Of a DNA stretch of 6,995 bases, positions 1 through 5,267 are shown one piece after another. Each line of letters starts with the position of its first letter. Positions within the stretch are counted from its first letter, which is position 1. The notes beneath the pieces were generated by a model. That model was given only the letters and a program-made list of their open reading frames with translations, was not told where the DNA came from and did not search any database. The translations under genes were made by a program, and so were the position numbers. The DNA is from Candidatus Fermentibacterales bacterium (lineage in GTDB: Bacteria > Fermentibacterota > Fermentibacteria > Fermentibacterales > JAFGKQ01): positions 1 to 6,995 of the forward strand of contig JAFGKQ010000069.1 in NCBI GenBank assembly GCA_016928495.1, in the 5' to 3' direction.

Positions 1-453
1 CATCCCATCGAACTCCATCACCGTCCGTCTGCCCGGTTCGGACACCAGGATCCTCCCGTCTTCCATGGCGCAGATCCCTCGGGGAGAGTAGAACTCACCC
101 GGACCGTGGCCCAGTCTTCCGAAGGTCGTGGGATTGCCGTTCTCCGGGACGATCCTGACCCTGCCCATGACGCGATCCAGTATCAGGACGGAGCCTGACG
201 GATGGTAGCAGAAGCCGTCTATGCTGCCGATGAGCTCCAGCGAGTCTCCCATCTCCACACCGAACGAGTCGGCTACTACGAGCTGATATACGGGAACACC
301 CGGGTCCGGGCCTGCAGGGCTCTCCTCAACGCTGGAGCTGCAATTGAACGAAGCCAGAACGGCACTCGCTACAAGAACCAGTACCGGAGCAGACCCCTTG
401 ACCGTCTGTGTCTGCGCCCTGCCTGCACACCTGCTCCCTGGTTGAACGGACAT
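1..453 (-). CDS. Exported six-bladed beta-propeller protein, probable lipoprotein (N-terminal part, runs off the left edge)
   Basis: The frame is open from ATG at 453 to base 1, giving 151 codons with no stop, so only the N-terminus is present. The start is chosen because GGAAGG lies about 8 nt upstream. Residues 1-20 are polar and basic; residues 21-36 are a hydrophobic signal segment ending in LASFNC (Cys38), followed by a Ser/Glu/Pro/Gly linker typical of lipoproteins. Asn at -1 and Phe at -2 make this a poor lipobox, so plain secretion is also possible. From about residue 55 the protein shows propeller blades. The diagnostic stretch is LGHGPGEFYSPRGI followed by an aspartate/glycine turn and ILVSEPGRRTVMEFDG, which matches the GxGPGEFxxPxGI signature of NHL-like/6-bladed propeller proteins. 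These are usually binding or scaffold proteins of the cell envelope. It lies on the same strand as the scm genes, 222 nt after the small cysteine peptide. Confident about the fold; the specific role is unknown. Confidence 0.8.
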   Translation of the reverse strand, partial: MSVQPGSRCAGRAQTQTVKGSAPVLVLVASAVLASFNCSSSVEESPAGPDPGVPVYQLVVADSFGVEMGDSLELIGSIDGFCYHPSGSVLILDRVMGRVRIVPENGNPTTFGRLGHGPGEFYSPRGICAMEDGRILVSEPGRRTVMEFDGM

Positions 454-675
454 GGCTTTCACCTTCCAGCGTGTCTCCCCCCGCGAGCCTGCTGGTCCCC
501 TCCAGGATCTACTCCGACGCCAACCGCGAGTGCTCCCCAGTGAGGCATGCGCCCGCGGACTCCTCTCGACAAGACCGGGAGGACTCGATGCAGCTGCTCT
601 CTCGAACCACCGGCTCTTTCACCTGTCCGAAACCCAGCGTCGCCCATGATGCTGGCACTACACTCGGCGGCAGGC

Positions 676-858
676 TCAGGACTGCCAGGGGCCAGGGAGA
701 CAGAGCTCTGTCTGTATATGCCCTCCGGGCCAGCACTGCACCCAGTCCTCTATTCCACCATCACATGAGAGCTTGGGGCTGTACCCATGCTTGCAGTCCA
801 TCGCGCCGTCAAACCCCCCAGCGCCTATCCCGAAGAGCCTCGGGTCTTCCCAGGTCAT
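676..858 (-). CDS. 60-residue cysteine-periodic peptide, candidate precursor for the adjacent radical SAM cassette
   Basis: This small ORF lies on the operon strand, 67 nt after the scmF stop. I chose ATG at 858 because GGGAGG sits 7 nt upstream; an in-frame ATG at 912 has no such site and would add 18 residues. The 60-residue product has an acidic/aromatic N-terminus (MTWEDPRLFG), a glycine-rich stretch (residues 10-18) and four cysteines at 22, 32, 42 and 53. It also has four tryptophans and a Pro/Gly C-terminal tail ending PGPWQS. It shows no signal peptide and no membrane segment. The repeating units around the cysteines (DCKHGY, SCDGGI, QCWPGG, LCLPGP) resemble a core carrying several modification sites, and size and position suit a RiPP precursor. 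I do not recognise the family and cannot prove translation. Codon choice is somewhat less GC3-biased than in the scm genes. The link to ScmDEF is inference from position, spacing and composition. Confidence 0.55.
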   Translation of the reverse strand: MTWEDPRLFGIGAGGFDGAMDCKHGYSPKLSCDGGIEDWVQCWPGGHIQTELCLPGPWQS

Positions 859-888
859 GCTACTGCCTCCCGTCATCGCTGAACCGCA

Positions 889-925: not shown

Positions 926-2050
926 TCAGCCCGGCACTCCGAGAGCCGGCCTCAGCCTGCTCTCCGGGAACAGCCCCCCTTCCATCGCCTGCTCGCAGTA
1001 CCAGAACGGGGCCGTGAGCCTGCCGCTGGCGTAGTAGTTCTGGGCAACGCAGCTTCCCATGCACAGAGCCTTCATCAGGCAGTCTCCGCAGACTCCCTCG
1101 AGCATTCCGGGAAGGCCGCCGCGGAGTTCGTTCAGAACCGGGGAGCCCCTCCAGACATCCTCCAGCCTGTCTCTGCCTGCGTGCCCGAAGACCAGGTCGG
1201 GAACCGTCTCCCCTATTCCGCAGAGGGAGTAGGAGCCGTCCGCCAGCACGCCCAGGATCCCCAGTACGTTGCACACCGCGCATCCGTCTCCTCCCCGTCC
1301 GAACATCCTGCCGAGCGGGCGGAAGGCCATGGGCTGGCAGAAGACGAGCCTGAGCGCGGTCTTCCCGGAGAGCTCGTCATGGACCCACCTGCCCAGCCTG
1401 ACCAGCTCCCGGATCGGCAGCGTCTCCATCGCCCTGTGCATTCTGTCTCCCCTCGCAGTGGGCTGCACCGGGTTGAACTTGACCGACTCGAGGCCGAGCT
1501 TCTCGGCCAGGCGGACTACCGCTTCCATCTGCTGCGCGTTCCTTCTCATCACCGACATGATGAGCTGTGTTCTGATCCCGGCCTCCGCCAGGCATCCTGC
1601 CCCCGAGACGGCAGCCTCGAAGGCCCCGTCCACTCCCCTCACCCAGTCGTGGGTCTCGGGGTCGGCTCCATCTATGCTGACCGACACGAAGGGCCTTCTC
1701 GAGCTGTCCCTCACGCGTCGGGCCATCTCCGGGGTGCAGAGCGTGCCGTTGGTCTCCATGACCAGATCGAGCTGCCGGGAGCGCACGATCGAGAGCATCT
1801 CCCCCAGGTTCGGGTGAAGGAGCGGCTCTCCTCCCGTGAGCTTCACCCCCCGCAGGCCCAGCAGCCTGCCCTGTTCGACGACCGACCGGAAGAGCCCGGG
1901 ATCCAGTGACGGGAGAGGCCTGTCGGGAGTCTGGTGCTCCGGCGCGATCCAGCAATGGCGGCACCTGAGGTTGCAGCCCTTGGTCAGGTAGAAGTAGATC
2001 TGCCTCAGAGGGTAGTGCTCCACAGCTTCTCGTTGCTCCTCTGTCCCCAT
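926..2050 (-). CDS. scmF: Radical SAM/SPASM peptide-modifying enzyme, ScmF-like
   Basis: This 374-residue enzyme is predicted to use S-adenosylmethionine and an iron-sulfur cluster to make a radical that modifies a peptide in the cytoplasm. The N-terminus IYFYLTKGCNLRCRHCW holds the CX3CX2C cluster motif (Cys26, Cys30, Cys33), followed by GGEP (73-76) and a SIDGADPETHDWVRG strand. The C-terminal SPASM domain carries Cys260, Cys277 (after an LGVLADGSYSLC strand), the CX2CX5CX3C set 321/324/330/334 and Cys352, enough for two auxiliary [4Fe-4S] clusters. The whole protein, especially the PLRQIYFYLT lead-in and HCWIAPEHQ, matches my memory of the SynChlorMet protein ScmF. Its ATG shares its A with the scmE stop (TGATG), and GAGGG lies 7 nt upstream, indicating translational coupling. 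All cluster cysteines are intact. The family assignment is good; substrate and chemistry are not known. Confidence 0.88.
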   Translation of the reverse strand: MGTEEQREAVEHYPLRQIYFYLTKGCNLRCRHCWIAPEHQTPDRPLPSLDPGLFRSVVEQGRLLGLRGVKLTGGEPLLHPNLGEMLSIVRSRQLDLVMETNGTLCTPEMARRVRDSSRRPFVSVSIDGADPETHDWVRGVDGAFEAAVSGAGCLAEAGIRTQLIMSVMRRNAQQMEAVVRLAEKLGLESVKFNPVQPTARGDRMHRAMETLPIRELVRLGRWVHDELSGKTALRLVFCQPMAFRPLGRMFGRGGDGCAVCNVLGILGVLADGSYSLCGIGETVPDLVFGHAGRDRLEDVWRGSPVLNELRGGLPGMLEGVCGDCLMKALCMGSCVAQNYYASGRLTAPFWYCEQAMEGGLFPESRLRPALGVPG

Positions 2051-3153
2051 CAGGACACCCTCGGCAGCTTCCCGCCCGAGTCGAGGAAGCGTCTCAGGCA
2101 GGCATCAGGGCTCGGATGGTTCTCGACGCCCAGGATCGTGTAGGCCAGGGCGGGGCAGTTGCCCCTGCAGTAGGGGATGTAGGGACAGCCCCTGCAGAAC
2201 TCGAAAGACCCCAGAGGCACATCCCACCTTCGCCTGAGGCTCAGGATGCCGGGGTGCTCCTGCCAGAGGACCCGCAGATCGGAGCGGTTGATCCTGCCCA
2301 GCTCGATATGGGTCATCTGGACGCACGGGACGATCACCCCGTCCGCCCTGACCGTGATCTTCGAGAAGACTCCCCCGCATGACCTGAGGTAGCCGCAGTC
2401 GGGGAACGGGTCCAGGCCTTCTTTCCTGGCCCGCTCCATGTCGAGCCAGTGCCTCGCGTTGGACAGCGGGCCCGCGTTGGCGAGGATGCGTCCGGGGTAT
2501 CTATCGCCGAGCCGAAGCAGGGCCTCCATCGCCCGGGAGTGCTCCTCGACGCCGAGCTGCACCTCGTCGGCGTTCTGCCTGCAGAGGCCCATGTAGGAGG
2601 CGGAGTTGGTGCTGAACGCGGGAAGCCCGAAACCCTCCAGAAGCAGCGTCGCGATCCTCTCGAGGTCATCCACGTTCCGCTTGTGGACCGTCACCCTGAC
2701 CGAGATGGGGAGCCGGCTCTTCTGGAGGATCCGCAGCCCGGTGATGACGCCCTCGAAGCTCCCATCGCCGCGGAAGTGATCGTGAACCTCCGGGCATGAT
2801 CCGTCGATCGAGAGCTGGACCTGGTGGCACCTTCCCGTCGATCTCAGGGAAGCCGCGAGCTCCAGGGTCAGCAGCAGCCCGTTGGTCTGTATCCGGAACC
2901 TCATGCGGTTCGTGACTATGCCGTTGACGAGCTCCATCAGGTCTCCTCTGAGAAGCGGCTCGCCTCCTCCGAGCACGACTTCGAGAACCGAGCAGCGGTT
3001 CAGTTCCTCGAAGAAGGCGAGCCACTCCCCGGTGGGGAGGTCATCGGATCCGGAGCCCTCGCTGCTGAAGTGCGAGCAGTAGGTGCACCTGAGGTTGCAC
3101 TGGTTCGTGATGCAGATCTCGACGTTGCGGGGGGTCCTGCAGGCTCTCATCAT
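2050..3153 (-). CDS. scmE: Radical SAM/SPASM peptide-modifying enzyme, ScmE-like
   Basis: This 367-residue radical SAM enzyme is the first of two in the operon. The cluster motif is ITNQCNLRCTYC (Cys19, Cys23, Cys26). It is followed by GGEP at 63-66, the SIDGSCPEVHDHFRG strand near 115-129, and a SPASM domain with Cys253, Cys259, Cys277, then 320/323/329/333 (CX2CX5CX3C) and Cys352. Stretches such as LPTGEWLAFFEEL, NRMRFRIQTNG, FSKITVRADGVIVPC and FEFCRGCPYIPYCRGNCPA match the SynChlorMet ScmE pattern as I remember it. The frame is open far upstream (to 3480), but that part is out-of-frame scmD. The start is therefore placed at the ATGATG one base after the scmD stop. The local SD is weak (a GGGCGGGCG run), so expression probably depends on coupling to scmD; the second ATG (3150) is an equal alternative. 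It shares the radical SAM and SPASM layout of ScmF but is clearly divergent from it, so the two enzymes likely act on different positions. Confidence 0.9.
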   Translation of the reverse strand: MMRACRTPRNVEICITNQCNLRCTYCSHFSSEGSGSDDLPTGEWLAFFEELNRCSVLEVVLGGGEPLLRGDLMELVNGIVTNRMRFRIQTNGLLLTLELAASLRSTGRCHQVQLSIDGSCPEVHDHFRGDGSFEGVITGLRILQKSRLPISVRVTVHKRNVDDLERIATLLLEGFGLPAFSTNSASYMGLCRQNADEVQLGVEEHSRAMEALLRLGDRYPGRILANAGPLSNARHWLDMERARKEGLDPFPDCGYLRSCGGVFSKITVRADGVIVPCVQMTHIELGRINRSDLRVLWQEHPGILSLRRRWDVPLGSFEFCRGCPYIPYCRGNCPALAYTILGVENHPSPDACLRRFLDSGGKLPRVS

Positions 3154-3154
3154 C

Positions 3155-3445
3155 TCAGCGCCCGCCCGGGGTGCGCAGCTCGGCCATTCCGCGGGTGACC
3201 AGCTCCTCCAGGAAATCCCCGACGATCCTCTCGGCATCGGACGGGACGTCGGTACAGCGCTCGCGGATCTCGGCGACGATGTCCCGCACCGTTCTGCTGC
3301 CGTCCAGGAGCCTGAAGACGAGCACGCCCATCGGGTTGACGCCGAAGGTAGCGGCGGTGTCGGGATCGAAGAGAATGGCCCAGTCGTCGGTCTCCTCGCG
3401 CAGGACGATCCGGGGCATGGGAAGAACGAGCGCTTCGCTTCGCAT
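3155..3445 (-). CDS. scmD: PqqD-like peptide-recognition protein, ScmD-like
   Basis: This 96-residue protein has the PqqD fold, the RiPP recognition element that binds a precursor's leader and presents it to a radical SAM enzyme. The visible pattern is WAILFDPDTAATFGVNPMGVLVFRLLDGSRTVRDIV at residues 22-57. It contains the family's 'FDP-t--t--lNP-G--v---LDG-rtv-eI' signature, followed by an acidic helix (AERIVGDFLEELVTRGMAEL). The start at 3445 is chosen because AAAGGA lies 8 nt upstream and the domain begins about ten residues later. The frame stays open to 3898, but that extension overlaps the divergent gene and looks non-coding. This is the first gene of the scmD-scmE-scmF operon and is separated from scmE by one base. 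Having a PqqD protein plus two SPASM enzymes is the defining content of the SynChlorMet cassette, so the symbol rests on protein type and neighbours together. Confidence 0.87.
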   Translation of the reverse strand: MRSEALVLPMPRIVLREETDDWAILFDPDTAATFGVNPMGVLVFRLLDGSRTVRDIVAEIRERCTDVPSDAERIVGDFLEELVTRGMAELRTPGGR

Positions 3446-4004: not shown

Positions 4005-5267
4005 TTACCGGGGCAGCCCCTCGATCAGTCTGACGGCGGTATCGAGGCCATCCTCGCCCGCCATCACGCCTGCCAGCTCCCGCGCGCGGGCTCTCATGCC
4101 ATCCGAGCCGCAGGCTTCCGCAATGGCCCCGGTCAGGGCGGGAAGGCTGAGCTTCCTGCGAAGCAGGGGCTTCGGGGCCACGCCCCTCCCGTGGAGAAGA
4201 GGTCCCCAGAAGAGCTGATCGACCCCGTACATCAGGACGACCGAGGGTAGGCCGCAGCCCGTGACGGTGTGGGTCGTGCCGGCTCCCCCGTGGTGGAGCA
4301 CTGCGCGGCAGTGCGGGAAGACCTCGCGATGCGGCGTCCTGCCGACCAGGACGATGTCGTCGGAGGAGGGCATCCACCTCAGGTCCTGCCTGCCGCACTG
4401 GATGACGCCTCTCTGCCCGGCGTCCAGGATGGCCCGGGAGACAAGCTCCATCAGCCGGTCCGGCTCGGGCTCGAAGTGCATCATGCTGCCGAAGGTGCAG
4501 TAGACCGGGGCCTCGCCGGCCTCGAGGAAACTCTGCAGGGCGGGCGGGATGCCGGTCTCCGGCTGCTCCGGGACCATGCTGCCGCACAGCCGGGCATTCA
4601 TGCCCCAGCGCACCTCGCGGGGGAAGAAGGCCCTGCTGCAGCCGACCAGAGTCAGGTCGCTCATGGTGATAAGCCAGTCGTAGACGTTGGGGATGGGATC
4701 CAGCCCCACCTGCTTGCGTAGCGAGTTGATCCTCTCGCCCAGGAGGCGTGAGAGCACCTTCGAGGCGATCCGCCAGAGCAGGGCGTTCAGGGGCCTTCCC
4801 AGCCAGGGCGCCCCCATGAAGCGGATGTCCGGGGACCTCAGCGCACCCGCTGTGGGCGTGACATCCACCAGGGGAGTACCGTGCTTCTCCGCTGCCACCG
4901 AGAGCGTGTGCACCAGCAGGTGCTTCACGACTACGTCGCAGTCCCGGCAGAGCCTGACGCTGTGGTCGAGAAGCTCCTGCTCCACCGGGTCGAACAGGTG
5001 GTCCAGAAGGAACCGGAAGTGCTCGACCGGGTCGCGCTTCGATATGGCCATGGCGCTCATGCGGTCGGCAAGCTCCCTGTCGTGCGGTATCGGGGCCGTC
5101 AGGGAGAGCCTGACCGGCCTGCCCTCGAGCATGCCGGAGTAGTCCCTGTAGTCTATCGGGGAGATGACCAGGTCGACCTCGTGCCCCCTGTCCGAGAGAC
5201 CCTGTGCCAGGGCCACAAGGGGCCTTATGTCGCCTTCGCTGCCCCATGCCATGATTCCGACCTTCAC
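4005..5267 (-). CDS. GT1-family (UGT/MGT-like) glycosyltransferase
   Basis: This 420-residue GT-B fold enzyme is predicted to transfer a sugar from a nucleotide-sugar donor to a small molecule, lipid or peptide acceptor in the cytoplasm. The N-terminal MAWGSEGDIRPLVALAQGL (6-24) is the GS-GD-xP acceptor-domain signature of the UGT80/macrolide/vancomycin glycosyltransferase group. The C-terminal donor domain has VYCTFGSM (255-262), HHGGAGTTHT (325-334) and the GVDQ sugar-contact motif (348-351). The length is typical of the family. The start is GTG at 5267 with a GAGGAGAGGAG tract 9 nt upstream; the next in-frame Met (residue 6) would cut into the first beta strand. It is convergent with the broken small gene and divergent from the protease, so it forms its own transcription unit and is not part of the scm operon. 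The acceptor cannot be predicted: glycolipid, sterol-like or natural-product targets all fit. Confidence 0.9.
   Translation of the reverse strand: MKVGIMAWGSEGDIRPLVALAQGLSDRGHEVDLVISPIDYRDYSGMLEGRPVRLSLTAPIPHDRELADRMSAMAISKRDPVEHFRFLLDHLFDPVEQELLDHSVRLCRDCDVVVKHLLVHTLSVAAEKHGTPLVDVTPTAGALRSPDIRFMGAPWLGRPLNALLWRIASKVLSRLLGERINSLRKQVGLDPIPNVYDWLITMSDLTLVGCSRAFFPREVRWGMNARLCGSMVPEQPETGIPPALQSFLEAGEAPVYCTFGSMMHFEPEPDRLMELVSRAILDAGQRGVIQCGRQDLRWMPSSDDIVLVGRTPHREVFPHCRAVLHHGGAGTTHTVTGCGLPSVVLMYGVDQLFWGPLLHGRGVAPKPLLRRKLSLPALTGAIAEACGSDGMRARARELAGVMAGEDGLDTAVRLIEGLPR

Follow-up and report, generated by a model that had tools for sequence, protein, structure and literature searches.

A ScmA-like candidate precursor peptide with four CxxG units beside scmDEF, and its relatives in cassettes from five phyla

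Which peptide do the enzymes of a SynChlorMet-type cassette act on? The question is raised by the window (the whole stretch of DNA analysed, 6,995 nucleotides), in which scmD, scmE and scmF are followed on the same strand by a short open reading frame with four Cys codons. The features of the window are listed in order of position.

1-462, minus strand: NHL/six-bladed beta-propeller lipoprotein gene, 5′ part, which runs off the contig
676-858, minus strand: gene for a predicted ScmA-like RiPP precursor of 60 aa (ATG at 858, stop at 676)
691-702, minus strand: CxxG unit 4, CLPG, residues 53-56
724-735, minus strand: CxxG unit 3, CWPG, residues 42-45
754-765, minus strand: CxxG unit 2, CDGG, residues 32-35
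784-795, minus strand: CxxG unit 1, CKHG, residues 22-25
835-852, minus strand: leader motif W-E-D-P-R-L, residues 3-8, of the type [W/Y]xxPx[L/V/I/F/A] read by discrete RREs
866-871, minus strand: GGGAGG ribosome-binding site, 7 nt before the ATG
926-2050, minus strand: scmF, radical SAM/SPASM maturase (TIGR04251, 549 bits, cut-off 400), with CxxxCxxC and a complete 7-Cys SPASM motif
2050-3153, minus strand: scmE, radical SAM/SPASM maturase (TIGR04250, 577 bits, cut-off 400)
3155-3418, minus strand: scmD, PqqD-like discrete RRE (TIGR04248, 99.6 bits, cut-off 100; PF05402, E 3e-12)
4005-5267, minus strand: MGT-like glycosyltransferase, upstream and on the same strand as the scm genes, of uncertain cassette membership

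The 60-residue peptide, MTWEDPRLFGIGAGGFDGAMDCKHGYSPKLSCDGGIEDWVQCWPGGHIQTELCLPGPWQS, is read from the minus strand; a plus-strand reading of 676-858 was rejected, as it contains a stop and the frame is not open. The sequence-only reading had described an ORF of this length behind a GGGAGG Shine-Dalgarno sequence, 67 nt past the end of scmF (926), with Cys at residues 22, 32, 42 and 53 (spacing 10, 10 and 11), and each of these details is borne out by the DNA. A Gly lies exactly three positions after each of the four Cys; when the core was shuffled, all four Cys occurred as CxxG in only 0.1% of trials. Pfam and NCBIfam profiles gave no family match to the peptide.

The neighboring genes assign the locus to SynChlorMet, with the ScmE and ScmF equivalog matches both above cut-off; the score of ScmD is at the cut-off line (99.6 vs 100 bits), and its orthologous position and fold agree with the assignment. 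The stop codon of scmE overlaps the start codon of scmF. Motifs of both enzymes correspond to those required of sactipeptide maturases, namely, a radical SAM enzyme with SPASM/twitch auxiliary clusters: CxxxCxxC and the 7-Cys SPASM motif are invariant in all 38 ScmF sequences and are 88-100% kept among ScmE sequences, a set that includes partial ones. ScmC (TIGR04249) had no match at E 1e-10 in the window's genome, which is 81% complete. Nor does the window include the SpI-type signal peptidase that canonical scm cassettes carry. The MGT-like glycosyltransferase was not seen beside scmD in the two other cassettes of the phylum, in genomes G032 and G028.

That no precursor had been identified for SynChlorMet, as the sequence-only reading held, is outdated: NCBIfam already includes a predicted one, TIGR04252 ("SCM_precur_ScmA"). 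This profile (35-bit cut-off) does not match the window peptide. It matches the G028 orthologue (22.5 bits, E 1e-4), a peptide from genome G327 (29.2 bits, E 8e-7, aligned from the leader onward) and, weakly, relatives from G417 and G086, all under the cut-off; every precursor tried against TIGR04252 missed at its cut-off, and no ScmA above 35 bits was found in the genomes searched. Since a precursor is already predicted in NCBIfam, this kind of system was known; the window peptide is a divergent ScmA of an already named system, not a first-found missing piece. Three things seem to be new: how widely the peptide family is spread, the rule of CxxG units, and a local variant that lacks ScmC and SpI and has a beta-propeller lipoprotein gene after the peptide. 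Among open-licence papers, none was found on SynChlorMet, ScmE/ScmF or the TIGR numbers, nor on the CxxG pattern, and the chemistry of SynChlorMet appears uncharacterised.

Among the 42 genomes of the phylum, ScmF is above cut-off in three (the window's own, G032 and G028), and in both of the others a peptide of like size is encoded by the next gene after scmF. These are MEWSNPRLVDLRMGGIDAQQNCENGGGPEKGCIFGGALNYDICHGGGEIAWEICVEGSSPEA in G032 (tblastn E 7e-10 with the window peptide) and MEWCNPVIVDLSVDTKESKKCVDGGAPTADCVFGGVKHGHTCNGGNHAPLCDTGGGGAL in G028, which starts with GTG. Both were found, like the window peptide, without use of the motif. A profile search revealed a further copy in the window's own genome, on contig C104:

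797-985 of locus L131 (G000:C104), plus strand: second ScmA-like peptide gene, between beta-propeller lipoprotein genes

This paralogue, MTWEDPRLVGLGNDGTRGFKLPLCFPGVDVLFWCEAGAIHYDECWPGGGKHVEICVDGSLAD, opens with MTWEDPRL, as the window peptide does. The two share 24 residues, 13 of them by different codons (dN 0.68, dS 3.9, the latter saturated). A GG cleavage site, considered at residues 14-15 of the window and G032 peptides, was dropped, being absent from G028, and a Paramyxovirus zinc-finger match of the G028 peptide (E 0.004) was judged to be due to chance. In the ScmF tree, the three cassettes of the phylum are grouped (100/96), with G228, from another phylum, as sister. Across the phylum, the peptide is present in 23/23 genomes with a ScmF-like gene vs 7/19 without one (Fisher 5e-6), a count in which some peptides also helped to build the search profile. 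The genomes compared are mostly draft assemblies; a ScmF-based search of genome contigs for related loci returned one locus, which was unrelated. Two observations concern the enzyme genes themselves: scmE of G028 (L038 9258-10356, minus strand) has a frame break, from sequencing error or genuine decay, and is represented by two overlapping ORFs, with peptide and scmF intact, and the window's own genome carries a second, divergent ScmE/ScmF-like pair (L039, G000:C308, 1121-3198, minus strand, 225 bits), beside which no peptide was found on that short contig.

Beyond the phylum, a precursor-like peptide occurs in the cassette of 14/14 ScmF genes scoring at least 385 bits, which span five phyla; it lies after scmF in 13 and before scmD in one (G327, contig C329). 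In G228, scmD, scmE, scmF, the peptide gene and scmC lie in this order, with genes for an SpI-type signal peptidase and an NTP transferase after them; the peptide (MKYEKPELKSLN...GGDVCTEGGNAGTCNIGYDDGHLTGG) occupies the gap between scmF and scmC. The G436 scm cassette includes an ABC transporter, and the canonical cassettes at L064 5134-7171 and L098 10695-13995 carry the SpI-type signal peptidase common to LPP/paeninodin clusters (PMC13381572). A fixed scan (Shine-Dalgarno site, 35-130 aa, leader motif and at least two CxxG) was run on the DNA downstream of 38 scmF-like genes (54 kb), where it detected 33 peptides, compared to 2 in 737 kb of control strand, both of them scm precursors too, and 0.03 in shuffled DNA. 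With Ka/Ks of the window peptide saturated, close relatives in sister cassettes were used instead, and three related peptides gave dN/dS of 0.22-0.28. An HMM trained on other phyla only placed the three cassette peptides at ranks 1-3 of 595 ORFs (E 0.006 for that of the window); with all other peptides in the training set, the window peptide scored E 8e-6. The training peptides came from scans requiring the leader motif and at least two Cys with Gly at +2 to +4.

These peptides have a common anatomy, in which an N-terminal [W/Y]xxPx[L/I/V] motif is followed by 2-7 CxxG units spaced 9-14 residues apart. The sequence-only reading expected regular Cys spacing of multi-site radical SAM substrates; across the family, the informative pattern is the CxxG unit and not regular spacing as such. 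Of 140 core Cys, 94% have a Gly at +3 (20% in shuffles), and most of the others are in CxPxG, where the Gly is at +4. Much of the CxxG statistic derives from the same motif-requiring scans, and the parts of it free of selection are the +3 preference and the closest peptides only. Since a Gly anywhere from +2 to +4 would pass the scan, the sharp choice of +3 is not a selection artefact. All 16 core Cys of the four closest peptides (window, G032, G028 and C104, the last from a profile) have Gly at +3. Separate from these are the sister ScmF-like cassettes at L048, L051, L055 and L080-L082, whose peptides (...GW[SGNH]A.C..G... plus a C-terminal tail) are separated from scmF by ~950-1000 nt that include a signal-peptidase-like ORF; they look like a separate RiPP subfamily.

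As a short ORF in an scmDEF cassette with a leader motif and repeated CxxG, the window peptide has the features of a ScmA-like precursor, and judged from sequence it is in all probability the RiPP precursor of the ScmD/E/F system, as had been proposed. The conserved peptides in all 14 high-scoring cassettes, the leader motif of discrete RREs and the repeated Cys units argue for this role. The proposal had been staked on whether similar peptides adjoin other cassettes and whether reading frames hold in relatives; similar peptides do adjoin them, and the frames are intact.

The mechanism that we favor (probability roughly 0.88) is that of a ScmA-type precursor whose leader is held by ScmD and whose core is modified by ScmE and ScmF at the CxxG units. 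Residues 1 to ~15 would form the leader, with W3-x-x-P6-x-L8 bound by the discrete RRE, ScmD would bring the precursor to ScmE and ScmF, and these radical SAM/SPASM enzymes would act on the core at its four units; leader removal and export would depend on genes that are not in the window. Discrete RREs have been shown experimentally to bind [W/Y]xxPx[L/V/I/F/A] leaders (PMC13381572), and StsC binds the WxxP of the sactipeptide StsA, with binding lost in double-Ala variants covering W and P (PMC12710340). The predicted ScmD model (pLDDT 83) has three strands and three helices in an RRE fold, and its best PDB matches are TbiB1 and TfuB1 with lasso leaders, the top one being the TbiB1-leader complex. 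Because this fold with its lasso-leader matches goes together with a known RRE motif, ScmD very likely holds residues 3-8, a contact predicted from the model and by analogy. The PF05402 match, the modelled fold and the WxxPxL motif correspond to what defines an RRE-dependent RiPP, binding here being a prediction; that the motif is short and common to lasso peptides counts against it.

Might the ORF have arisen by chance, without a product? The window is GC-rich and has many overlapping ORFs, as such an origin would suggest, but in the homologues and the paralogue, which have 35-40% identity, the start, frame, leader and Cys are retained despite codon changes, with strong Shine-Dalgarno sites in all. 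The ORF is a real, conserved small-peptide gene, and a chance origin has next to no credibility. Nor is it at all probable that the product acts on its own as a Cys-rich peptide for metal binding or redox chemistry and has its gene beside scmF only by accident. Four Cys in 60 residues and the lack of a family match would suit such a peptide; however, peptides of this kind are found practically only beside scmF-like genes and co-occur with them across genomes, they have the RRE leader motif, and what is kept is CxxG, not CxxC or CxxH.

A more serious alternative accepts the precursor and differs in the reaction. In the favored mechanism, a sactionine-type thioether would join each Cys sulfur to the alpha-carbon of the +3 Gly. 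The product would be a string of four-residue rings, none nested in another, spaced like Cys31-Gly34 in streptosactin, whose bonds (Cys25-Ser28 and Cys31-Gly34) are un-nested (PMC8172795). Instead, the enzymes might form thioethers to beta- or gamma-carbons (ranthipeptide-like), C-C or other crosslinks, or epimerise residues, or the Cys might be transient iron-sulfur ligands. SPASM enzymes catalyse all of these reaction types, two different enzymes may mean two reactions, and profiles pick no one reaction, with similar scores of ScmE and ScmF for the StsB, PapB, PqqE, WgkB and heme-synthase models. Against these options stands the near-invariant partner of Cys, a Gly at +3: since Gly has no side chain to attack, an alpha-carbon thioether is suggested. 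Sequence does not tell this bond from other Cys or Gly radical chemistry, and by analogy we rate the Cys-to-Gly(+3) thioether at about even odds and a different chemistry on a genuine precursor as a sizeable minority prospect.

In the window's phylum, the precursor has a further constant neighbor. Each of the three genomes has a beta-propeller lipoprotein gene after the peptide, and NHL/DUF5128 six-bladed beta-propeller lipoproteins are encoded at 1-462 of the window, L037 10412-11527, L038 6695-7927 and L131 1046-3509. The end of the window and the start of C104 overlap exactly by 14 nt, with one 410-aa propeller ORF reading through; thus, C104 likely continues the window past position 1, giving the order scmD-E-F-A1-propeller1-A2-propeller2-propeller3. 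It is possible that the lipoprotein is a partner, receptor or immunity protein of the precursor.

More tentatively, SynChlorMet-type cassettes might constitute a large multi-phylum RiPP class in which a two-enzyme radical SAM pair with a shared RRE closes 2-7 alpha-thioether rings per peptide, each un-nested and linking Cys(i) to Gly(i+3), and in which, within the window's phylum, each precursor has its own beta-propeller lipoprotein as a possible surface partner or receptor. The rule of a [W/Y]xxPx[L/I/V] leader plus CxxG repeats, usually just after scmF, yields substrate/enzyme pairs from five phyla, which make scm chemistry directly testable.

Several known systems share parts of this architecture. 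LPP (PMC13381572) and paeninodin-like lasso peptides have the same [W/Y]xxPx[L/V/I/F/A] leader and discrete RRE, and SpI recurs in canonical scm; for LPP clusters, the leader consensus is a different one (YxxPxVLxHQ...) and radical SAM enzymes are not described, and the window holds none of their markers (SpI peptidase, HprK-like kinase, NTP transferase, LPP leader consensus). StsA/StsB/StsC of Actinomycetota (PMC12710340; NF045558, NF045574), an actinobacterial sactipeptide system distinct from streptosactin, GggA/GggB (PMC12710340, PMC8172795), likewise pairs a radical SAM/SPASM maturase with a discrete RRE of the PqqD type whose target is a WxxP leader, and the StsA profile weakly matches a G020 peptide (E 0.009). 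The window peptide has no StsA match, and scm has two maturases. Streptosactin GggA/GggB (PMC8172795) is alike in its radical SAM/SPASM maturase, its Cys to +3 spacing and Gly among the acceptors, but has two units and one maturase, whereas scm peptides have 2-7 units and would be served by two maturases with the RRE as a separate protein, their bonds being predicted. Canonical SynChlorMet (TIGR04248-TIGR04252) has the same ScmD, ScmE and ScmF and a small Cys/Gly-rich peptide in the cassette. The window differs in that neither ScmC nor a signal-peptidase gene is nearby and a beta-propeller lipoprotein gene follows instead: namely, it is a local variant of this system, with a divergent ScmA and a beta-propeller lipoprotein in place of ScmC.
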